A stretch of DNA of 64,000 nucleotides from Sphingobacterium puteale (GCF_003627955.1 NZ_RBWS01000013.1:124001-188000), one strand, 5' to 3'. Positions 4,281-16,647 are shown, numbered from the stretch's first letter. Program-made: numbers and translations. Notes: generated from the sequence alone by a model not told the origin.

Positions 4281-4517
4281 TCGAAAAAATAATACAGGAA
4301 CAAACGAGCTTAACATGGCTGTCCAGCAACCAATCAAGTCGCTTTGTAATCACTGAATTCGGCTATTTTTCCAAAGGCAATTTTCGTCTACTTTAGCCTC
4401 AGGATCCCTGTATTTAACATGGATCCTGTCATAAAGCGTTGCATTGGCATAATGAGTATATACGAAACTTTTCTTTGCTCTTTTAACAGCAAACGCTTTC
4501 AATTAAAAAGAAAAAAG

Positions 4518-5981
4518 ATGATCAAATCAATATTAGTAGGTTTAATAACCATTCTTTGTATGACGGCCTGTGCACAAGAGTCCACCATAAATTCATCGCT
4601 AAAATCTATCCATTGGATTCCGATGCAGACCCAGGACAAACAATTTGTCTATGTGGACAGCTCGCTACGGAAGCAGCTGACACAAAAATTCTATGGAGCC
4701 GAACCTTTCACTTCCGCTGGCTATGCTATCGTCTCAAATGAGAAGAACCAGCAGGCTTTAATTAATTCAAAGGGGGATTTTATCGAAAATTATTCTGATA
4801 CTGATCTTGGGTTACAACCACTAGGCCGAGTGACGCTGCTTATGAAACGTCGGGAGCATGAGAAAAAACTGCCTTTCTGGAACTGGGACTGGAGTATCAT
4901 GGGTGGTGGCATAAAAAAAACAGCGACCTATGTTAAGGTAGAAATCCGTGTGCTAGAAACCGACCAGATTCTGTTGGACAAAGATGTTCCCTATGACGAA
5001 AACGAATACAGTTCGGCTGTATACGATCTGGATGATAAACATTTCGTCCTAAATGGGAATCTTTATGAACTAAAAAATCAGCATCTAAAAAAGCTTAATA
5101 CAAAAATTGATATGATTTTGGAAAATGGCCGATATATTCCTCCTGCTGAAAATCGTTTTGAGATCTACGATATTCAACAGAACCGGCCTATTTTTTCCAA
5201 TCTGGTCGGTGTCGATAAAATAGACTTGCTTTGGAATGGCCAGCCTTTACAGCTGGATTCCATCAATCAGGATCGCTATAAACCAACAGTGCCTAAATTG
5301 TTAAAAGACAACAGCACAGGTGCCATCTATGTTTTTCCGGAATATGAGAAAGCTTTGCCAAAACAAATCAAACAGGCTACTGCAGCACAGTTGGATTTTC
5401 TAAAAGAAGTTTCTCTCGTGTATTCTGTCAACAATTCACCTTACTTTATTTTGGGGAGATTTAATTATGACCATGAGGTCTGGGCTTATGACTGGTTATA
5501 TCTTGACAAGGATGGCAATTTATTGGATAAAATCAACGTCAAGGATTTCTTTATTTTGGACCAGGTAGGTTATCTGGTCTGGCCTGATAAGCATATGTTG
5601 TTTACGAAGAATACCCTTGAAAAAGATTGGAAAACGGGAAAAATAAAATACGTCTATCAAACTGAGGCATTATACCTCATCAACATCAAAAAAGGAGAGC
5701 AGGATCCAACCATGGGCCTCTGGAATGCCGAGACCAAAAAATGGGATTTACCGCCAAATTTTCAGCATATTGATATCTTGGATGGCAAACAACAAATCTT
5801 TTCCTTACAGATGCAAAAAGATGGGCCTTTTACCTTGTACGATAATAAAACAAAAAAGCAGATCGGAAGCAAAAGTTATGACACGATCAGCTCAAATGGA
5901 CTGGTACGGGAAAAAGATGCGGAAAATAAAGATAATTACTATTACATAGATATTTATACCGGAAAAGCGTACCGCGAGTAA
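4518..5981 (+). CDS. Putative lipoprotein, WG-repeat-like
   Basis: The frame is open from 4419, but the convincing start is the ATG at 4518. It follows an A/G-rich stretch and gives a lipoprotein signal peptide with lipobox MTAC, about 487 aa. The mature protein resembles WG-repeat or KWG proteins: short units such as FVYVDSSLRKQL and QALINSKGDFIENY, then a long beta-rich region with many aromatic and charged residues. No catalytic motif is seen. Cell-envelope location is likely; function unknown. It is flanked by a divergent fic gene and by a hairpin downstream. Confidence 0.7.
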   Translation: MIKSILVGLITILCMTACAQESTINSSLKSIHWIPMQTQDKQFVYVDSSLRKQLTQKFYGAEPFTSAGYAIVSNEKNQQALINSKGDFIENYSDTDLGLQPLGRVTLLMKRREHEKKLPFWNWDWSIMGGGIKKTATYVKVEIRVLETDQILLDKDVPYDENEYSSAVYDLDDKHFVLNGNLYELKNQHLKKLNTKIDMILENGRYIPPAENRFEIYDIQQNRPIFSNLVGVDKIDLLWNGQPLQLDSINQDRYKPTVPKLLKDNSTGAIYVFPEYEKALPKQIKQATAAQLDFLKEVSLVYSVNNSPYFILGRFNYDHEVWAYDWLYLDKDGNLLDKINVKDFFILDQVGYLVWPDKHMLFTKNTLEKDWKTGKIKYVYQTEALYLINIKKGEQDPTMGLWNAETKKWDLPPNFQHIDILDGKQQIFSLQMQKDGPFTLYDNKTKKQIGSKSYDTISSNGLVREKDAENKDNYYYIDIYTGKAYRE

Positions 5982-6053: not shown

Positions 6054-6154
6054 TCGAAATATGAAATAATTTAAAAATAAACTTGCAGGATTAATTCATA
6101 GCAGACAAAATATACTCTTTAAGATTTATTAACTTTAAAGGAACATACGGTTAC

Positions 6155-6162
6155 TAGTTTTG
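6155..6162 (+). promoter_or_regulatory. -7 element ahead of the sigma factor gene
   Basis: TAGTTTTG fits TAnnTTTG exactly, but no clear TTTG lies at the right -33 spacing. The element coincides with the TTG that would otherwise be the first start codon of the downstream frame. This argues that translation begins further in. Confidence 0.4.
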
Positions 6163-6708
6163 CCCAATCAAATTGATCCTGTGAGCGAAATATTAATAGC
6201 ATTATTAAAGAAAGGTGACCATTTTGCAATGGAAAAGATTTTTAATCTGTATTGGGAAACCATTTTTGATGCGGCTTTTAAAAAAATCGGTGAAGAGAAT
6301 GTAGCTCAGGATATCACGCAGGAAATTTTTATCTCTCTTTGGGAAAATCGTGAACGGATCGCCCTCTCAGGTGGTCTCCCAGCCTATCTACACGGGGCTT
6401 TAAAATTCAAGGTAATCAATTATTTCAGAAATAATACGGTTAAAAATGGGCATCAAGCGGAATTCGCTACACTAATGAACCAACAATATGCAGACGCAGC
6501 CGACGATCAAATCATCCTACAAGATGCCCAACAAAAAGTTGAAGAAGCTTTAATGCAACTTCCGGAACGTATGCGGCAAGTTGTTTTGATGAGCCGAAAG
6601 CAGGAAAAATCAATCAAAGAGATCGCGGCTGAGTTGAATATCTCCGTGCAAACTGTAAAAAACCAGATTACCTCAGCGATGAAATTGCTCAAAAAAAGCC
6701 TTTCATAG
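6160..6708 (+). CDS. ECF-type RNA polymerase sigma factor
   Basis: The 182-aa frame shows sigma region 2 (GDHFAMEKIFNLYWE, then AQDITQEIFISLWE) and region 4 with a helix-turn-helix (KEIAAELNISVQTVKNQI). This is the Bacteroidota ECF family that usually partners FecR-type anti-sigma factors. There is no ATG before region 2. The first start is TTG at 6160 and GTG at 6181 is in frame. The TTG overlaps a likely -7 box, so 6181 may be the real start. It is followed within about 100 bp by fecR and then susCD, and should direct RNA polymerase to that cluster. Confidence 0.92.
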   Translation: MPNQIDPVSEILIALLKKGDHFAMEKIFNLYWETIFDAAFKKIGEENVAQDITQEIFISLWENRERIALSGGLPAYLHGALKFKVINYFRNNTVKNGHQAEFATLMNQQYADAADDQIILQDAQQKVEEALMQLPERMRQVVLMSRKQEKSIKEIAAELNISVQTVKNQITSAMKLLKKSLS

Positions 6709-6809
6709 CTTTTGCCTGACTCACTGATTTTCAGTTAACAAAAAATTAATATATCCCTAATATTTTCTACTAGTACCATTTGCCATTTGAAGTGACATGT
6801 ATTCAAATG

Positions 6810-7754
6810 ATGGAAGAAAAAGCAAAGCAACTACTGCAAAAATATTTAAATGGGGAAGCCAATGCAGCCGAGATCAAACAGGTTGAAGATTGGTATGCTC
6901 AACTGGATAATACGAACAATAAGGTTTCGGAAGAGCGCAAAACTGTGCTCCGCGAAAAATTGTTAGCTAATATTCAGTCTGCCATTTCAGAAAAACAAAT
7001 CAAAAAGCATTTCTTCTCGCGCTATCCGATTCTGAAAATAGCAGCAGCGGTTTTAATCATAGTGTCCGCAAGCTTCCTTGTTGGACGACTGAACGAACAG
7101 ACTGTTTCTGCCGTTTCCCAAATCGTGACAACAACGCAGGCTGGGGAACGTAAAAAAATTACATTAGTGGATGGTTCGGAGATTATTCTAGAGCCTTCGT
7201 CCAAAATTAGTTACCCAAGTAAATTCAACGGCAACATACGCGAAATTGAGCTTGCCGAAGGTGAAGCGTTTTTTACGATTGCACATGATGAAAAGCATCC
7301 TTTCCATGTACAGTTAGCTTCCGACCTAGCAGTAAAAGTGCTAGGAACCTCATTTCGAATTAAAACATACCAAGCTTCCCAAAACATAGAGGTTCTCGTT
7401 GCAACAGGTAAAGTTGCAGTACAACGGGGAGATAAAGTCCTGGGCTTGCTGACCAAAAACCAGAGTTTGCGCTACAGCACACAGACCGAACAAGCATCCT
7501 GTAGTTTAACAAAAGATACCACGCCAGTGACAATCGAATTTAATGGGACTTCGTTACAAGGAGTGATACAACAATTGGAATATGTCTACAACATTGAAAT
7601 CGTACTGAAAGACAAAGCACTTTCCACCTTAAAAACTACAGCTACCTTCAATAGCACACAAAAACCAGAGGAGATTTTGGGTATTCTCTGTAGCCTACAC
7701 CATATTAAATATAGTGCGACCGAAAACCACAAGATATTTAAAATCCATAAATAA
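6810..7754 (+). CDS. FecR-family anti-sigma factor
   Basis: The frame is open from a TTG at 6780, but the double ATG at 6807/6810 is the natural start (about 314 aa). The cytoplasmic N-terminal part (1-70) should bind the sigma factor. One membrane segment lies at about residues 74-92 (ILKIAAAVLIIVSASFLVG). The periplasmic FecR domain follows (TTQAGERKKITLVDGS onward), and a C-terminal domain of the type that contacts the STN domain of a SusC partner ends the protein. Position between sigma and SusC genes fits a trans-envelope relay: transporter to anti-sigma to sigma. Confidence 0.93.
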   Translation: MEEKAKQLLQKYLNGEANAAEIKQVEDWYAQLDNTNNKVSEERKTVLREKLLANIQSAISEKQIKKHFFSRYPILKIAAAVLIIVSASFLVGRLNEQTVSAVSQIVTTTQAGERKKITLVDGSEIILEPSSKISYPSKFNGNIREIELAEGEAFFTIAHDEKHPFHVQLASDLAVKVLGTSFRIKTYQASQNIEVLVATGKVAVQRGDKVLGLLTKNQSLRYSTQTEQASCSLTKDTTPVTIEFNGTSLQGVIQQLEYVYNIEIVLKDKALSTLKTTATFNSTQKPEEILGILCSLHHIKYSATENHKIFKIHK

Positions 7755-7788
7755 TGTATAAAAATAACCGCAAAAAATCTTGGTCACC

Positions 7789-10700
7789 ATGCGTAATTCA
7801 TTACCTAATTATTACAAAAAAATGAAAACACCTCCACTCAAAAGAGAACTCTCTTTTTATCGGATCCTGAAGTATCCGTGCCTAACATTTTCAATTACCT
7901 CCATATTCTGCAGTTCTCTGATGGCATCTCCAGGAATGGCTCAAAAATTGGATAGAAGCAGAATAAACATTAAAATAAGCAAGGGACAACAACTTGATGC
8001 TATCCTGCATAAAATGGAGAATCTTTCAGGGCTAAGTTTTGTTTACAATCCGGACCTTCTGCAAGAACACAATACTGTTGTCAATGGAAATTTCAAAACG
8101 GAATCTGTACGTTCGTTGTTGAATAAACTTGGAATCAGTGCGGTAGAAAAAGATGGTCATATTATACTTACCGCACAAGCAAACATCAAAGCAGATCGTG
8201 TCATTACCGGCGTTGTTAGGGATACCCTCGGTAGCGCTATTGCCGGTGTATCTGTAAAAGTGGTCGGAACCCAAGTTGGTACAACGACTGATGCCAAAGG
8301 TTCTTTCCGTATTGAAGCAGGGGCACAGGCGACACTTTCGTTTTCCATGATTGGTTTCCGCTCAAAAGAGGTGGTTGTGGGCGACAATGAAGTTATTAAT
8401 GTAACCTTAAGCGAGGAACGTTCGACATTATCTGAAGTTGTCGTTGTTGGTTACGGAACACAGAAAAAAGAAACATTAACTGGTGCCGTAAGTGTGGTAT
8501 CACTTGATAAATTATCCTCACGGTCAGTAAACAGTGTTGGCGAAGTGCTCGCAGGAAAATCTCCCGGAGTGATTGTGACCAACGAAGGTGGTGATCCAAC
8601 TTCACCGCCACGTATAAATATTAGGGGCGCCGGAGGTATCAATGGCGAAAACGTACTTTATGTTATTGATGGTTCAATTTTCTTAGGTACCCCACAATTA
8701 AATCCCAACGACATCGAGTCTATTTCAGTGTTAAAGGATGCCTCTGCTGCGATCTATGGCGCTAGAGCTTCGGGTGGTGTAGTGCTCATCACAACGAAGA
8801 AAGGTAAGAAAGGACAGATGCAAATCAGTGTTGATGCTAAAATCGGCCAACAAAGTGCATGGCGCAAACTAAAACCTCTAAATGCCCAACAACGTGCGGA
8901 AGTAGCGGCCACCGCCGCAAAAAATGGTGGCACGGCCATCTTGCCTGCTTTCGACCCCGCAAAATATCCAGACGGACAGGTTACCAAAACCAACTGGATG
9001 GATGAAGTCTTTAGAAATGCAACTTTGCAGGACTACAATGCCGCTATCAATGGCGGAAATGATAAATCCAATTTTTACTTGAGTTTCAATTACCGCAATG
9101 CGGAAGGTATTGTGCTTAATACAAAAACACAACGTTACAATTTCAGGGTAAACTCAGAGCATCAGATAACCCCTTGGTTAAAAGTAGGGGAAAACATGTC
9201 CTATAGCAGTACCAATGGAAATGGCGCCAATACCAGCAGTGATTACACCGGGGCACTCCTTTCTGCAGTTTATTATCCGACCAATGGAACTCCTTATAAT
9301 CCTGATGGCAGTTTTGCAGGTCTACCAGGTCCTTTTCCAGGTGATTATGGGGATATTATTAATCCCGTTGCCGAACTGATGCGTATTGACATCAATCAAC
9401 CTGAAAATGTATTAGTCGTCAATCCCTATGCAAATATTCAATTGGCCAAAGGCTTAACATTCCGATCGAATTTAAGCATTACCAAAACTAACGCTAGATA
9501 TAAAAGCTTCACACCAAAACGTCCTGAAATAGGTAAACCGGTATTGAACAATAGCTTAGTTGAAAGGGCTAGCGACGCAAATGATATTCTCGCTGAACAA
9601 GTCCTAAATTACAAAACTTCGTTTGATGCCCACCAACTTGATTTGACCGGTGGGTATACTTTTCAAAAGACTAAAAGCACGCATCTGAATACCTCAGCGA
9701 GTGATTTTGATGACGAATCCAAACAATATAGGTACTTAGATAATGCGAATGAAGTGCAACCGCCCGAAAGCGGCTATACCTCAACAGCAATTTCATCGCT
9801 TTTTTTAAGAGCAAACTACAATTACGATGAAAAATACCTACTATCATTGATCGGAAGGCGGGACGGATCATCCATGTTAAAGGAAAAAAATAGATACAGG
9901 AACTACTACTCCGTTTCAGCAGGCTGGGCCCTTAACAAAGAAGAATTCCTCAGCTCAGTAGACTGGTTAAACGAATTAAAATTAAGGGGTAGTTATGGCG
10001 TTTTAGGCGGCTTGGCCAATCTAAGCCCATTGGACGTCAGCCCACTTCTAGTACGTACGACGAGTTATTTCGGAGCAAAACCAACGCTGCAGAATGGCTA
10101 TGCACAAAATGTCTTACCGAATGAGGATTTACGCTGGGCAGAAAGTAAACAAACCAATATAGGCTTGGACCTTGGCATTTTGAACGGTTTGAGTTTAGTC
10201 GCGGATTATTTTGTCAAGGAGACAAACAACATGATCTTAACACGAACGCTTCCGGGAACAGCTGGATTGAATACCCAGACCATTAATGGGGGACTTGTAA
10301 AGGATAAAGGTTTTGAATTAGGATTAACTTATAGCAGTGCGAAAAACAAGGACTTTTCGTACTCCATCAATGCGACACTAACCAAATTAACCAACAACGT
10401 TGAGGAATTGGCTCCAGGATTGAACAATATTGCCGTAGGTACCAACTTTAGAAATGAGTTGGCTCCCCTAACAATAACTGTCGGTCAACCACTTTATAGC
10501 TATTATGTCTTAAAGACGGATGGCATTTTTCAGAGCCAGGCAGAAGCTGATAATTACAAAAATGCCAATGGACAAAAAGTTCAGCCCAATGCAAAAGCCG
10601 GTGATTTTAAATTTGTAGACATCGATGGCAATGGCTCCATTGGTCCCGAAGATCGCTATTACGCTGGCAGCGCCTATCCTGATTTTTCCTATGGTCTAAG

Positions 10701-11166
10701 TTTCAATGCCAACTACAAAAATTTCGATTTCAATATTTTTGCTCAAGGTGTACAAGGCAACAAACTCTTCAATGCAGTCAAGAGAACGACGTACAGCGCC
10801 AGTGGCCCTTCGTACAATAAATTAGAAGGAATTCTTGATGCTTGGTCACCAGAAAACCCGAACGGAAAAGTGCCAATTATCTCGAGTTCAGACGCCAATG
10901 GTAACTTCAATGCCTCAGATTTCTATATCGAAAATGGTTCTTTTCTCCGCATCCGTAACGTTACTTTGGGTTATACCCTTCCAAAATCTTTGGCTGATAA
11001 ATTTAAACTTGGGAACGTACGAGTTTACGCCACTACAAACAACTTGTTCACGTTCACAAAATATACAGGATTCGACCCAGAGATTGGTATGGATAACAAT
11101 GGACTTGATGTTGGTCGTTACCCACAAGCCAGAAGCTTTATCTTCGGTTTAAATGTCAATTTTTAA
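7789..11166 (+). CDS. SusC/RagA TonB-linked outer-membrane transporter with STN domain
   Basis: About 1125 aa from the ATG at 7789 (an upstream TTG at 7780 and ATG at 7822 are alternatives). Order: signal peptide ending near SPGMAQ, STN signalling domain (INIKISKGQQLDAIL onward), carboxypeptidase-regulatory-like beta domain (VITGVVRDTLGSAIAGVSV), TonB-dependent plug (VVVVGYGTQKKETLTGAVS, then VLYVIDGS) and a C-terminal beta-barrel ending in a Phe (GLNVNF), typical for outer-membrane barrels. With SusD it should import an oligomeric ligand using TonB energy. The STN domain marks it as a signalling transporter matching the FecR and sigma genes upstream. Confidence 0.96.
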   Translation: MRNSLPNYYKKMKTPPLKRELSFYRILKYPCLTFSITSIFCSSLMASPGMAQKLDRSRINIKISKGQQLDAILHKMENLSGLSFVYNPDLLQEHNTVVNGNFKTESVRSLLNKLGISAVEKDGHIILTAQANIKADRVITGVVRDTLGSAIAGVSVKVVGTQVGTTTDAKGSFRIEAGAQATLSFSMIGFRSKEVVVGDNEVINVTLSEERSTLSEVVVVGYGTQKKETLTGAVSVVSLDKLSSRSVNSVGEVLAGKSPGVIVTNEGGDPTSPPRINIRGAGGINGENVLYVIDGSIFLGTPQLNPNDIESISVLKDASAAIYGARASGGVVLITTKKGKKGQMQISVDAKIGQQSAWRKLKPLNAQQRAEVAATAAKNGGTAILPAFDPAKYPDGQVTKTNWMDEVFRNATLQDYNAAINGGNDKSNFYLSFNYRNAEGIVLNTKTQRYNFRVNSEHQITPWLKVGENMSYSSTNGNGANTSSDYTGALLSAVYYPTNGTPYNPDGSFAGLPGPFPGDYGDIINPVAELMRIDINQPENVLVVNPYANIQLAKGLTFRSNLSITKTNARYKSFTPKRPEIGKPVLNNSLVERASDANDILAEQVLNYKTSFDAHQLDLTGGYTFQKTKSTHLNTSASDFDDESKQYRYLDNANEVQPPESGYTSTAISSLFLRANYNYDEKYLLSLIGRRDGSSMLKEKNRYRNYYSVSAGWALNKEEFLSSVDWLNELKLRGSYGVLGGLANLSPLDVSPLLVRTTSYFGAKPTLQNGYAQNVLPNEDLRWAESKQTNIGLDLGILNGLSLVADYFVKETNNMILTRTLPGTAGLNTQTINGGLVKDKGFELGLTYSSAKNKDFSYSINATLTKLTNNVEELAPGLNNIAVGTNFRNELAPLTITVGQPLYSYYVLKTDGIFQSQAEADNYKNANGQKVQPNAKAGDFKFVDIDGNGSIGPEDRYYAGSAYPDFSYGLSFNANYKNFDFNIFAQGVQGNKLFNAVKRTTYSASGPSYNKLEGILDAWSPENPNGKVPIISSSDANGNFNASDFYIENGSFLRIRNVTLGYTLPKSLADKFKLGNVRVYATTNNLFTFTKYTGFDPEIGMDNNGLDVGRYPQARSFIFGLNVNF

Positions 11167-11266
11167 TCTTAAAATAATGCCAACAGGATCTAAACAAAGG
11201 ATAGTTCAATCTATAGCCATTTGGTCTAGGCCCTTATCAATCATTAAAAAAGAAAATAAGCAAATG

Positions 11267-12787
11267 ATGAAAACGAATATAAAATACTTTGCAATAGCAG
11301 CAACAGCACTCTTTGCATCGTGTACGAAACAATTGGATATTTCTCCAGAAGGCGCCCCCTCTTCACAGAATTTTTGGAAAACAGAACAAGATGCGATCAA
11401 AGCAGAGGCCAGCATGTACGAAAAATACAATGAAGAGGATTACTATGGACGTGGGATGTTCTGGTTTATCAATGCAAGCGACGATATGGTCACAGGACGC
11501 AATAAACCTGAAGCAGATAATATTAAGAATTTTAACCGCAGCTACATTGGTGGTGGTTACACAGAAACACAATGGAGTATGCGCTATGCCATCATCAAAA
11601 GAGCAAACGACATTATTATCAATGTCCCGCGCATCTCAATGGATGAAAATCGGAAAAAGCAAATTATTGGCGATGCTTATTTTAATGCGGGCTTAGTTTA
11701 CTTTCAACTGGCAGCAAATTACGGAAACGACAAAGCTGGTGTGCCAATTGTCACACCAGAAACAGATGCCACAGTACCGGTCCCGCGTGCCAATAATGTC
11801 AACGAAAATTATGACTATATTATCTCTTTGTTTTTAAAAGCGGCCGAAAATCTACCCTATTTTTCAGATATGAGTTCATCTGATTATGGCAAAGGACACA
11901 AAACCGCAGCTTGGTCTTACCTATCAAAAGTCTATCTCTATAAAAAGGACTATACGAACGCAGCAAAATATGCGGATATGGTCATCAATTCAGGCAAACA
12001 TAATTTGCTACCGACCTTTGTCGATGTGTTTAAAGCAGCCAACAACTGGTCTCAAGAATATATCTGGTCTGTTGTCTGTACGCCGGATGGTGGTGGAACT
12101 GGCTGGGGAAGCAAGCTTCCGGGAGTTATGTTGACCAATAAAGCTTGGGGAATTTACAACGGCTGGGGGTACTATCTGCCTACCAAAGAACTGTACGATT
12201 CATTTGAGACGGGTGACTCGCGTCGCGAAGCAACGATCTTAAAACCTGGCGACAAATTCCAGTTCTTCGGTGCGGAACGTACTTTTACAAAAGATGGTGG
12301 TGCGACATCCAACTATCAATTCAAGAAGTACATGGAGCCTTTTTCATACAAAGATCCTATTCCAACACACGTCAACCCAAACGGTGATAATGGAACAACA
12401 GATTTAAATGTACCATTGATGCGTTATGCGGAAGTACTTTTAATTAAAGCTGAAGCAATCATAAATTTAAATGGCTCAGGTGCTGGTGATACTGAATTAA
12501 ATAAAATCAGAAAACGGGCTGGATTATTACCGAAAAGCGGAATGACATTAGTGGATTTAAAACGTGAACGCCGAAATGAACTTGCTGGCGAATGGGCGGA
12601 CCGTCACCGTGATCTGGTCAGATGGGGTGATGCACAAGCCACTTATGCCAAACCTTTACATGATTTCGATGGTACGGTTATCTGGCCAGCCAGAACCTTC
12701 AACCCACAGGTGCACGATGTTTGGGCGATACCACAACGTGAAATCGACAACAGCTCAGGTGTAATTAAACAAAATGCAGGATGGTAA
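11267..12787 (+). CDS. SusD/RagB nutrient-binding lipoprotein
   Basis: The frame is open from 11153, overlapping the susC stop. The start that yields a lipoprotein signal peptide (ATALFASC, Cys19) is the second of two ATGs at 11264/11267, giving 506 aa. The rest matches the SusD fold: helical TPR-like scaffold with DAYFNAGLVYFQLAANYG, and a C-terminal segment with LMRYAEVLLIKAEA and ERRNELAGEWADRHRDLVRW. It is a surface lipoprotein that caps the SusC barrel and binds ligand. It ends with a 7-nt overlap (ATGGTAA) with the phosphodiesterase-phosphatase gene, so the two are probably translationally coupled. Confidence 0.95.
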   Translation: MKTNIKYFAIAATALFASCTKQLDISPEGAPSSQNFWKTEQDAIKAEASMYEKYNEEDYYGRGMFWFINASDDMVTGRNKPEADNIKNFNRSYIGGGYTETQWSMRYAIIKRANDIIINVPRISMDENRKKQIIGDAYFNAGLVYFQLAANYGNDKAGVPIVTPETDATVPVPRANNVNENYDYIISLFLKAAENLPYFSDMSSSDYGKGHKTAAWSYLSKVYLYKKDYTNAAKYADMVINSGKHNLLPTFVDVFKAANNWSQEYIWSVVCTPDGGGTGWGSKLPGVMLTNKAWGIYNGWGYYLPTKELYDSFETGDSRREATILKPGDKFQFFGAERTFTKDGGATSNYQFKKYMEPFSYKDPIPTHVNPNGDNGTTDLNVPLMRYAEVLLIKAEAIINLNGSGAGDTELNKIRKRAGLLPKSGMTLVDLKRERRNELAGEWADRHRDLVRWGDAQATYAKPLHDFDGTVIWPARTFNPQVHDVWAIPQREIDNSSGVIKQNAGW

Positions 12788-14634
12788 AAAGCAATAAGTT
12801 AATTTGGTTATTATTTGCCAGTCTAAGTATTCAGTCAGTTTCCGCTCAGCAGAAACTGACTGCTAATGCAGGGCACAGCCATAACGATTACAAACAACAG
12901 ATTCCATTGCTGGCGGCCTACTACGCTGGTATGGGCTCTATCGAAGCTGATGTCTTCTATCGTAATGGAGAGCTCTACGTTGCACACGAAAGCAGTGAAA
13001 TCAAGCCCGGGAAGACCTTAAAAAAGCTTTACATCGAACCTCTAATTGCCTTCTTCAAAGAAAATGGCAACCGTCCATATGCCGATCCCAGTCAAAAGTT
13101 GCAATTGGTGATCGATATTAAGGAAAATTACGAACAGGTACTTTCTAACTTGTTGGAAAATCTAAAAGGATATGAGGCTGTATTTGATCAGCAGAAAAAT
13201 CCTTCAGCTATTAAGATTGTTATCAGTGGGAATATTCCTCCGGTCGAAAAATTTAATCATTATCCACAATTTATCTACTTCGACGGGAGGCCCGAAAAAG
13301 ATTACTCGCCTGAACAGTTGAAGCGCATTGGAATGATCAGTCAGAGTATTGCTCACTATTCGGTTTGGAACGGCAAAGGAACACCTACTCCACCTGATCT
13401 CGAAAAAATGAAAACCGTCATTGACAAAGCGCATAAAATGGGCAAACCTTTCCGCTTTTGGGCTACAAAAGATAGCCCTAACAGCTGGAAAGAATTGGCG
13501 CACATGGGTGTAGATTGGATCAATACGGACCAACCAACCGCATTAAAAAATTTCTATCTAAATAATGCCAAGGTTGAATACAGCAATCCACAGTCCTACA
13601 GTCCCTACATACCCAACTATAAAAGTGATGGTGCCACCACCAACATAAAAAATGTTATTTTGTTGATTGGAGACGGAATGGGCTTAGCCCAAATTCAAGC
13701 TGGTTTAAGCGCTAATTTTGGCCAATCAAATATCATCAATATGCAGCATATTGGTTTTTCCCGCACCGAAGCATCAAACTCTGATTTTACAGACTCCGCA
13801 GCCGGTGGAACAGCGATTGCTACTGGGCATAAAACCAACAACCGATATATTGGTGTGGATGAAAATGGTAAATTGATCGCCTCAATTCCCGATACTTTGG
13901 CCTCCCATGGTATCAAAAGTGGTATCATTAGCTCAGGAGACATTACCGATGCAACACCTGCAGCATTTTACGCACATCAAATGGACAGGACAATGTCGCA
14001 AGAAATTGCAGCGGACTTCCTCCACAGTCATGTCGATATCTTGGTAGGTTCCCATCAGGAAAGTTTTCTAAAGAATAAGAACGGTAAACTGATGCAAAAA
14101 TTGAATGAAAAAGGTTACCAACTACAGACCACATTGAGCGACTTCGAAAAAGCCACTTCGGGCAAACAATTGGTGCTTCTGGCGGATTCGGCGACAAGAA
14201 AAGTGCTAGACGGACGAGGAGACATGTTAAAAACCTCGCTTTTAAAAACCATACAATTGTTATCCAAAAATAAACATGGCTTCTTTATCATGGCTGAGGG
14301 TGCGCAGATCGATTATGGAGGACATGCAAATGACCTATCTTATGTTGTCACAGAACAACATGATTTTGATAGACTGGTGGGCGAAGCCTTAAAATTTGCA
14401 GACCAAGATGGTGAAACCCTAGTCATTGTGACAGCAGATCATGAAACGGGTGGACTATCCTTATTGGATGCCAATTATAGAAAAGGTTCAGTCAGAGGAA
14501 ATTTTAGCAGCGATGATCACACCAACATTATGGTTCCGGTCTTTGCTTACGGTCCCGGTTCACAGCATTTTATAGGTGTTTACAACAATACTGAAATTTT
14601 CAAAAAGATTCTGAAGGCTTATAGGCTGAACTAA
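12781..14634 (+). CDS. Secreted GDPD/PI-PLC-like phosphodiesterase fused to alkaline phosphatase
   Basis: The 617-aa protein has a Sec signal peptide (cleavage after VSA, near 22). Residues about 25-260 form a GDPD/PI-PLC-like TIM barrel: H32-S-H34-N35-D36, then E55-A-D57 and VAHE, the expected metal and catalytic pattern. Residues about 288-617 are a complete alkaline phosphatase: GDGMG (D298), catalytic S339 in TDSAAGGTA, EGAQIDYGGH (E506, D511, H515), TADHETGG (D553, H554) and H580. The likely sequence of reactions is phosphodiester to phosphomonoester to inorganic phosphate in the periplasm or outside. The overlap with susD ties it to the importer. The substrate is not known; glycerophosphodiesters or inositol phosphodiesters are candidates. 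Confidence 0.93.
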   Translation: MVKSNKLIWLLFASLSIQSVSAQQKLTANAGHSHNDYKQQIPLLAAYYAGMGSIEADVFYRNGELYVAHESSEIKPGKTLKKLYIEPLIAFFKENGNRPYADPSQKLQLVIDIKENYEQVLSNLLENLKGYEAVFDQQKNPSAIKIVISGNIPPVEKFNHYPQFIYFDGRPEKDYSPEQLKRIGMISQSIAHYSVWNGKGTPTPPDLEKMKTVIDKAHKMGKPFRFWATKDSPNSWKELAHMGVDWINTDQPTALKNFYLNNAKVEYSNPQSYSPYIPNYKSDGATTNIKNVILLIGDGMGLAQIQAGLSANFGQSNIINMQHIGFSRTEASNSDFTDSAAGGTAIATGHKTNNRYIGVDENGKLIASIPDTLASHGIKSGIISSGDITDATPAAFYAHQMDRTMSQEIAADFLHSHVDILVGSHQESFLKNKNGKLMQKLNEKGYQLQTTLSDFEKATSGKQLVLLADSATRKVLDGRGDMLKTSLLKTIQLLSKNKHGFFIMAEGAQIDYGGHANDLSYVVTEQHDFDRLVGEALKFADQDGETLVIVTADHETGGLSLLDANYRKGSVRGNFSSDDHTNIMVPVFAYGPGSQHFIGVYNNTEIFKKILKAYRLN

Positions 14635-14706
14635 AAAAATACTGCTTACAGATCGGGTATCCGATCCCAACAGATTCCCATAGATAGTACTATGCTATCC
14701 GCAAAA

Positions 14707-14745
14707 TAAAATCCCCTGATTGTACAATCAGGGGATTTTATTTTT
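14707..14745. terminator. Terminator, 34-bp perfect palindrome
   Basis: The stretch 14707-14740 is identical on both strands (AATCCCCTGATTGT and its complement as arms) and is followed by a T-run. It ends the sigma-fecR-susCD-phosphatase unit. Because the palindrome includes A-run and T-run it would also work in reverse. Confidence 0.85.
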
Positions 14746-14853: not shown

Positions 14854-16647
14854 ATGATACCACGACTCAAAAGAATCGCGATCTTATTTTTACTACTGGT
14901 CAGCGCTTCCATACCGCTTTTTGCTCAGGACAATGGAAAGGCGGATTGGTTTAAAGATGCCCGTTTTGGCATGTTTATCCACTGGGGCTTATACAGCGCT
15001 GCTGAAGGTATGTGGAAAGGTGAGCCTTTACGGTATATGAATAATTATGCGGAATGGTTACGCTACCGCAACCGCGTATCGAAAGAAGAATATGGCAGCT
15101 TGGCCAAGCGCTTTGACTGGAACAAGATAGATCCGGAAAAATGGGTGCTTCTGGCAAAGGAGGCCGGAATGAAATATATGATTATCACGACCAAACATCA
15201 TGATGGTGTGGCGCTATGGGATACCAAAGTAGGAACCTATAGTTTACCTAAACTGAGTAGCTCCAACCGCGATGTGATCAAAGAAATCGCAGCTGCCTGT
15301 AAAAAGCATGGTATAAAACTCGGCTTCTACTATTCACACTGGATCGACTGGGAACATCCCTATGGCTGGAATCATCAGCAAGAATTGTCCGGACATGTTA
15401 CGGATGCACAATATAATCAGTACTGGCAGGAAAAAGTAATACCCCAGCTTCGTGAACTCATGAGCAACTACGGTGATATTTCACTGATATGGTTTGACAT
15501 GTGGATCCCCTATCAAAAATCCATCATCAAAAAAGAACAGTTGCTTCAGGTCGTAAAATTAATCCGCGAGCTGCAACCGAACTGCCTGATCAATTCACGA
15601 CTGGGCCTTCCAACAGATGCTGAAAACGTAGATTTCGAAACCCTTGGCGACAATCAGTTTGGCAGCAAGTATATCGCTCACCCTTGGGAGACGCCGGGCA
15701 CGATCGCACACTCCTGGGGCTACAACGGTCAGGAAAACGAATGGAAATCTACAAGTCAGATCTTTCAGTCATTGATTTCAAACGTTAGTCTCAACGGTGG
15801 ATTCACCTTAAATATCGGTCCTCGTGCCGATGGTACTGTTCCTTACGAGAGCGTAAGCCGCTTACATGATGTAGGCTCTTGGTTAAATACCTATGGCAAA
15901 AGCATCTATGGTGCCACGGGTCTTTCTTTAAAAAACAACCATTTTGACTGGGGTTACCTGACCACAAAAACTGAACAAAATAAAACGGTGGTCTATGCGC
16001 ATGTATTTAACTGGCCTTTGGATCACAAACTTCGTATTACAGGTATCAAATCCAAACCGTCCAATATAGCAGTGATGAAAGGTAACAGTTCAACGACTTT
16101 GAACTATGAGCAGAAGCTGAGTTCAATCCATATTGACCTGCCTGTTGATCAACCGGATCATTATGTTTCGGAAGTAAAATTGACCTTCGATGGTCCCTTG
16201 GAACTGGACAAAAATACCGTCCCTGAATCTACTTTTGGTGGTTTTTCTCTAAAATCAACCAATAGCCTCAATAATGACCTGAAAATCGTACGTTATAACG
16301 GCAAAAATCCAACCCATGCTGTCCTCACGGGAAATACGAAGATCGACTGGGAAGTGACGGTTACGGAGGCCGGAACATATGCGATAGATTTCTCTGCGCA
16401 CAATCCCAATAAAGAAAATATTCCTTTCGAAATTAGCGTTGCTAACCAACAACTGAGGGGAAGTTTTGATCCTACAGATAAAATGGTTGTCGAGCCAAAT
16501 GAAAATAACTACACCGAAGAATTTATAGAAAAGCGTATCGGAACATTAAAATTTGATAAACCGGGGAAATATATCCTGACGTACAAAAGTCAACAGCGGC
16601 TTCCACTCTGGTTTAATTGGTTATGGCTGGAAAAAACAAAAAATTGA
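14854..16647 (+). CDS. GH29 alpha-L-fucosidase
   Basis: 597 aa with a signal peptide ending near LFAQ, so secreted or periplasmic. Residues about 28-350 form the GH29 catalytic barrel: WFKDARFGMFIHWG, the TTKHHDGVALW loop and LIWFD with D215 as the expected nucleophile. C-terminal beta domains (about 380-597) follow. It removes terminal alpha-L-fucose from glycans. The gene lies behind a terminator and is separate from the upstream cluster, followed by its own hairpin at 16679. Some GH29-like proteins have shifted specificity, so the precise sugar is inference. Confidence 0.9.
   Translation: MIPRLKRIAILFLLLVSASIPLFAQDNGKADWFKDARFGMFIHWGLYSAAEGMWKGEPLRYMNNYAEWLRYRNRVSKEEYGSLAKRFDWNKIDPEKWVLLAKEAGMKYMIITTKHHDGVALWDTKVGTYSLPKLSSSNRDVIKEIAAACKKHGIKLGFYYSHWIDWEHPYGWNHQQELSGHVTDAQYNQYWQEKVIPQLRELMSNYGDISLIWFDMWIPYQKSIIKKEQLLQVVKLIRELQPNCLINSRLGLPTDAENVDFETLGDNQFGSKYIAHPWETPGTIAHSWGYNGQENEWKSTSQIFQSLISNVSLNGGFTLNIGPRADGTVPYESVSRLHDVGSWLNTYGKSIYGATGLSLKNNHFDWGYLTTKTEQNKTVVYAHVFNWPLDHKLRITGIKSKPSNIAVMKGNSSTTLNYEQKLSSIHIDLPVDQPDHYVSEVKLTFDGPLELDKNTVPESTFGGFSLKSTNSLNNDLKIVRYNGKNPTHAVLTGNTKIDWEVTVTEAGTYAIDFSAHNPNKENIPFEISVANQQLRGSFDPTDKMVVEPNENNYTEEFIEKRIGTLKFDKPGKYILTYKSQQRLPLWFNWLWLEKTKN

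Follow-up and report, generated by a model that had tools for sequence, protein, structure and literature searches.

A plus-strand run of five genes lies in the stretch of Sphingobacterium puteale DNA analysed here (64,000 nucleotides, referred to as the window): an ECF sigma factor, a FecR-type regulator, a SusC transporter, a SusD lipoprotein and an enzyme in which a PI-PLC/GDPD-like domain is fused to an alkaline phosphatase. An alpha-L-fucosidase gene follows (Table 1). Open reading frames and Pfam and NCBIfam matches bear out the five-gene set and order of the original prediction. The closest named match of the fused enzyme is its counterpart in S. athyrii (93% identity).

Table 1. Features of the locus, with positions counted from the first letter of the window
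Feature	Position	Strand	Basis or remark
Conserved promoter element CTTTAAGATTTATTAACTTTAA	6117..6138	+	Upstream of sigma; nearly unchanged in seven Sphingobacterium loci, partly in Pedobacter
-7 box TAGTTTTG, TAnnTTTG type	6155..6162	+	Bacteroidota-type; kept in orthologues
ECF sigma factor, GTG start	6181..6708	+	TIGR02985 above cut-off; start from orthologue indels
FecR-type sigma regulator	6807..7754	+	PF04773 (4.8e-18), PF16344 (1.4e-15); start by conservation
SusC/RagA TonB-dependent transporter	7780..11166	+	TIGR04056 (2.9e-253, 843 bits)
STN-type signalling domain of SusC	7939..8175	+	Matches of an N-terminal profile in PDB and to Pfam STN/FecR_C
SusD-like surface lipoprotein, lipobox LFASC	11264..12787	+	PF07980 (8.3e-31); PF14322; lipobox from sequence
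Signal peptide, PI-PLC/GDPD-like domain and PhoA-type alkaline phosphatase, 617 aa, PhoA1 orthologue	12781..14634	+	PF00245 and PF13653
PI-PLC/GDPD-like TIM-barrel domain; H34, N35, E55, D57, H69	12868..13554	+	AlphaFold2 fold, invariant residues
Alkaline phosphatase domain; nucleophile S339	13639..14631	+	TAB5 likeness; invariant ligands
Intrinsic terminator hairpin, operon end	14703..14744	+	19-bp stem, -24.6 kcal/mol, z -7.0
Alpha-L-fucosidase (PF01120) gene	14854-16647		Beside the locus in Sphingobacterium loci, not in Pedobacter

Where do these genes begin? The -7 box overlaps a TTG that the ORF finder takes as the sigma start, but in the orthologues indels fall between the box and GTG 6181, and the coding region therefore most likely starts at this GTG. 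For fecR, the orthologue alignment points to the conserved ATG 6807 as the most likely start. SusC may in truth start a little further downstream than TTG 7780, and the lipobox places the start of susD at about 11264/11267, as read from the sequence. The start codon of the enzyme does overlap the susD stop, as had been claimed: its ATG (12781) sits in an ATGGTAA, an arrangement shared by most loci of Sphingobacterium and Pedobacter. The fucosidase had been set apart from the rest of the locus, and a strong hairpin indeed precedes it, recurring between enzyme and fucosidase in seven aligned relatives. Upstream of sigma, several Sphingobacterium loci conserve a gene for a 520-aa protein (4419-5981 in the window), in which a Pfam scan gave no domain.

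The fused enzyme and its two active sites

The enzyme is predicted by AlphaFold2 with a pLDDT of 92 (91.6 for the first domain). The model of this first domain is a TIM barrel that matches the GDPD 3no3 (Z 15.5, rmsd 2.9, 201 residues aligned) and the bacterial PI-PLC 5fyr (Z 15.2, rmsd 3.3, 207 residues aligned) equally well. It shares with this superfamily the two histidines and the E-x-D motif, but it differs from its members in a SHNDY motif and in an identity of about 10-20%. SHNDY resembles the SHNTY of eukaryotic PI-PLC. The full-length Pfam GDPD model (PF03009) matches 8 of 37 fused enzymes. The C-terminal domain is a PhoA-type phosphatase, with 43% identity to the TAB5 phosphatase 2iuc (TM 0.91, normalised to target length). 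It keeps the catalytic ligands of TAB5 and E. coli PhoA, which lack the N-terminal diesterase-like domain of the window enzyme.

Are the active sites intact? The phosphatase half has all that was claimed for it: the serine nucleophile S339 and the zinc and magnesium ligands D298, D390, T392, E506, D511, H515, D553, H554 and H580 are present and invariant in 18 close homologues, and R403 is in place too. The diesterase residues originally named (H32, H34, E55 and D57) are also invariant in these 18 sequences, and the residues listed as invariant among 37 fused enzymes include all of these from both sites but D390. That list nevertheless needs amending, as it omitted H69, and across the family the invariant histidine is H34 rather than H32: in 48 such domains, fused and unfused, the invariant columns are H34, N35, D36, E55, D57 and H69.

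A literature search for other reports of a PI-PLC/GDPD-like domain fused to a phosphatase found nothing relevant. The domain has other partners in the genomes surveyed. A second kind of diesterase-phosphatase fusion, of about 1100 aa, joins it to a beta-propeller-like region and a PF04185 phosphoesterase (L085:6634-9996, minus strand, and L094:9293-12586, plus strand). At L105:8218-9972 it follows a GH18 domain in one protein, and at L100 the N-terminal region that precedes it matches no Pfam family.

Linkage to SusCD and the STN-FecR-sigma relay

Does the enzyme travel with its transporter? The domain occurs in 44 of 395 Bacteroidota genomes drawn from across the phylum, in 58 of 94 Sphingobacterium genomes and in 88 of 399 genomes of a Flavobacterium-type genus draw. 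Forty neighbourhoods were annotated, the window genes serving to make the profiles. A SusD lies within 1.5 kb of 18 of the 24 fused enzymes, compared with 2 of the 16 unfused relatives (Fisher p 2e-4), and four further fused loci (L067, L086, L091 and L095) have SusCD within about 5 kb. Could this be chance? With 113 SusD matches in the 6.7 Mb of the window's own genome, about 8% of genes would be expected so close, and the observed 18/24 has a binomial p of about 1e-15, which rejects chance. In some Pedobacter (L029, L031, L034 and L067) SusCD and a second, plain alkaline phosphatase both precede the fused enzyme, making a two-phosphatase cluster.

In a SusD tree (a quick one, with long branches outside the partner clade, some loci entered twice and F. 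johnsoniae left out), a single clade with full support unites the enzyme partners from Sphingobacterium, Pedobacter, Flavobacterium and others, and every SusD in it is a partner. Most enzyme-linked SusDs fall in this clade, the window SusD among them, alongside partners that have the PUSII layout described below. A second SusD lineage, beside SusCs without STN, and an isolated SusD (L072) pair with fused enzymes outside the clade. The association of enzyme and SusD has thus formed, or re-formed, at least twice, and the pairing of the second lineage with the enzyme means that the ligand may differ between lineages.

The STN domain was predicted on SusC as the first element of a relay across the envelope through FecR to the ECF sigma. 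In the single SusC sequence it stays below the Pfam cut-off (E 0.075 and 0.0093), and a profile was needed to see it. Built from 21 homologous SusC N-termini, this profile matches the secretin/TonB N-domains of PilQ (E 2e-5) and, more weakly, the ferric-pseudobactin receptor (E 0.022) and the C-domains of FecR-like anti-sigma proteins; 16 of the 21 match Pfam STN with an E of at most 0.1. By these matches the domain is real but divergent. The transporter with its STN domain, FecR and sigma stand side by side, as in FecA/FecR/FecI-type systems, which supports the proposed architecture. The window differs from those systems in having a SusC in place of the siderophore receptor, and its signalling relay is a predicted one.

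The neighbourhood survey had been suggested as a check on whether SusCD, FecR and sigma always accompany the enzyme. For SusCD the check comes out in favour, most fused enzymes having it close by; FecR and sigma are not always there. Among the fused enzymes of the phylum draw that are linked to SusCD, roughly one in two has no FecR and a SusC that lacks STN. FecR is found only beside STN-bearing SusCs. The SusCs next to FecR are 1116-1207 aa long with an STN-type N-terminus, compared with 967-1022 aa and no STN for full-length SusCs without FecR. For two SusCs beside FecR (L072 and L101), the STN profile missed the domain, yet an N-terminal extension is recognisable.

Upstream of sigma, the DNA of seven Sphingobacterium loci aligns as a CTTTAAGATTTATTAACTTTAA block followed by TAGYTTTG, the -7 box. 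Allowing up to three mismatches, the element occurs once in its own genome. Its Flavobacterium counterpart has one strong match in most of eight genomes, the remaining matches being near background. A Pho box shared across a regulon was considered and finds no support in simple consensus scans of the window's genome and these eight: the window element is unique to the locus and the Flavobacterium one nearly single-copy, thus no shared Pho box was found. The elements TTTATTAACTTTAAAGGAACAT (window 6117-6138) and TTTATTAATGTAAACGTAACC (Flavobacterium L110-L114) look related across classes and stand at differing distances before the -7 box. An inverted repeat before fecR (CATTTGAA..TTCAAATG) folds no better than its shuffles.

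Orthology with PUSII and the proposed mechanism

Is the combination new, as the original prediction had it? It is not. Lidbury et al. 2020 (PMC8115612) named phosphate utilisation systems in Flavobacterium johnsoniae, and this combination is their PUSII: Fjoh_3252 (FecR), 3251 (PusC2), 3250 (PusD2) and 3249 (PhoA1, pf00245 plus pf13653). Its transcripts rise by 7 to 10 log2 units on Pi depletion, and its SusCD responds to phosphate depletion alone, limitation of nitrogen or iron giving no induction (PMC8115612). In PMC8812569, a P. putida phoX mutant regains activity on pNPP when given PhoA1Fj, which demonstrates phosphomonoester hydrolysis in vivo, and PhoA1 is found to have no essential role in scavenging from phosphomonoesters. 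The reading of the window is therefore right in substance and describes a published system.

The genome compared here is almost certainly F. johnsoniae UW101, an identity we infer from gene positions. The position of its fused enzyme, 3.88 Mb, is the one expected for locus tag 3249, and the strand fits falling locus tags, with SusD, an STN-bearing SusC, FecR and an ECF sigma upstream. The five genes have the same order as in the window, with identities of 49% (enzyme), 53% (SusD, by tblastn), 42% (SusC), 29% (FecR) and 30% (sigma). The window thus holds what marks PUSII, a PusC/PusD pair beside a PhoA with an extra pf13653 domain, plus FecR, together with a similar promoter layout. It differs from the F. 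johnsoniae locus in its promoter element, in its fucosidase neighbour and in the ATGGTAA overlap, where F. johnsoniae has a short susD-enzyme gap. The PUSI system of the same species, made up of PusCD1, an ECF sigma and two phosphodiesterases of the periplasm, resembles the window in coupling SusCD to phosphoester hydrolysis and is induced by low phosphate, but it has different enzymes and lacks a fused PhoA. Table 1 of PMC8115612 and Table 1 of PMC8812569 assign PF13653 to different PhoA proteins of F. johnsoniae. The genome sides with the table of 2020: the fused PhoA adjoins SusCD, and the other PhoA, at 3.80 Mb and 470 aa, fits Fjoh_3187.

What would such a system do? The cluster probably takes up molecules that contain phosphorus and removes their phosphate inside the cell envelope. 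On the cell surface SusD (PusD) would catch an organophosphate, which SusC (PusC) would bring in with TonB energy. In the periplasm the PI-PLC/GDPD-like domain would cleave the diester to a monoester, from which the fused alkaline phosphatase would free phosphate. The loaded SusC would also signal through its STN domain to FecR, freeing or activating the ECF sigma and raising expression of the locus. The locus is the Sphingobacterium orthologue of PUSII, and this explanation as a whole is very probable; ligand-sensed uptake of an organophosphate, followed by hydrolysis of diester and then monoester in the periplasm, is its most likely function. Import and dephosphorylation of a phosphoester had been proposed already, and the enzyme-SusCD linkage came out in favour of this. 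The ligand may be a phosphodiester, and the first domain is a putative diesterase.

The main rivals concern ligand, enzyme and control. SusCD pairs serve mostly glycans, and 113 SusD matches in one genome make it natural to ask whether the locus handles a fucosylated polymer decorated with phosphate or phosphodiesters, the enzyme stripping the phosphate so that the sugar becomes a carbon source and the fucosidase acting in the same pathway. The fucosidase is indeed the next gene in all eight Sphingobacterium loci read (window included). However, this is a glycan-active gene adjacent to the locus in Sphingobacterium only, past a strong and conserved terminator, and in Pedobacter and Flavobacterium the enzyme has no such neighbour; with the phosphate-only induction of the orthologous SusCD (PMC8115612) added, a glycan-utilisation locus is unlikely. 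It is also improbable that the N-terminal domain has lost its catalytic role and now acts in binding or in dimer contacts, which would leave the protein a plain alkaline phosphatase exported with the SusCD system. In favour of this reading, the literature consulted gives no diesterase assay for any member, few members match full-length PF03009, and some diesterase activity is inherent in PhoA enzymes, as PMC8812569 states. But the six residues invariant in all 48 domains are those usually seen where a PI-PLC/GDPD site is functional, and the domain is also fused to a phosphatase of another type (PF04185).

Does the locus then belong to the low-phosphate response in Sphingobacterium? Purely local control by the ligand, through a complete STN-FecR-sigma relay and outside that response, would fit a promoter element unique in its genome and a Flavobacterium element that is related but different and nearly single-copy. 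The strong induction of the F. johnsoniae orthologue by low phosphate argues against it, and the promoter scans are simple consensus scans only, which makes this option rather unlikely. The fullest form of the organophosphate-import reading, in which a two-step enzyme taking phosphodiester to phosphate is fed by a dedicated SusCD that senses its ligand through STN, FecR and sigma, with expression needing the ligand and not only low phosphate, is put forward tentatively, as a possibility somewhat short of even.

The PUSII of plant-associated Flavobacterium is thus common to Sphingobacterium and Pedobacter, its SusD and enzyme co-inherited, and is found across the Bacteroidota. The STN-FecR-sigma relay is an optional part of this one enzyme-linked system, and the locus offers a defined transporter-enzyme pair for asking what phosphate-linked SusCDs import.
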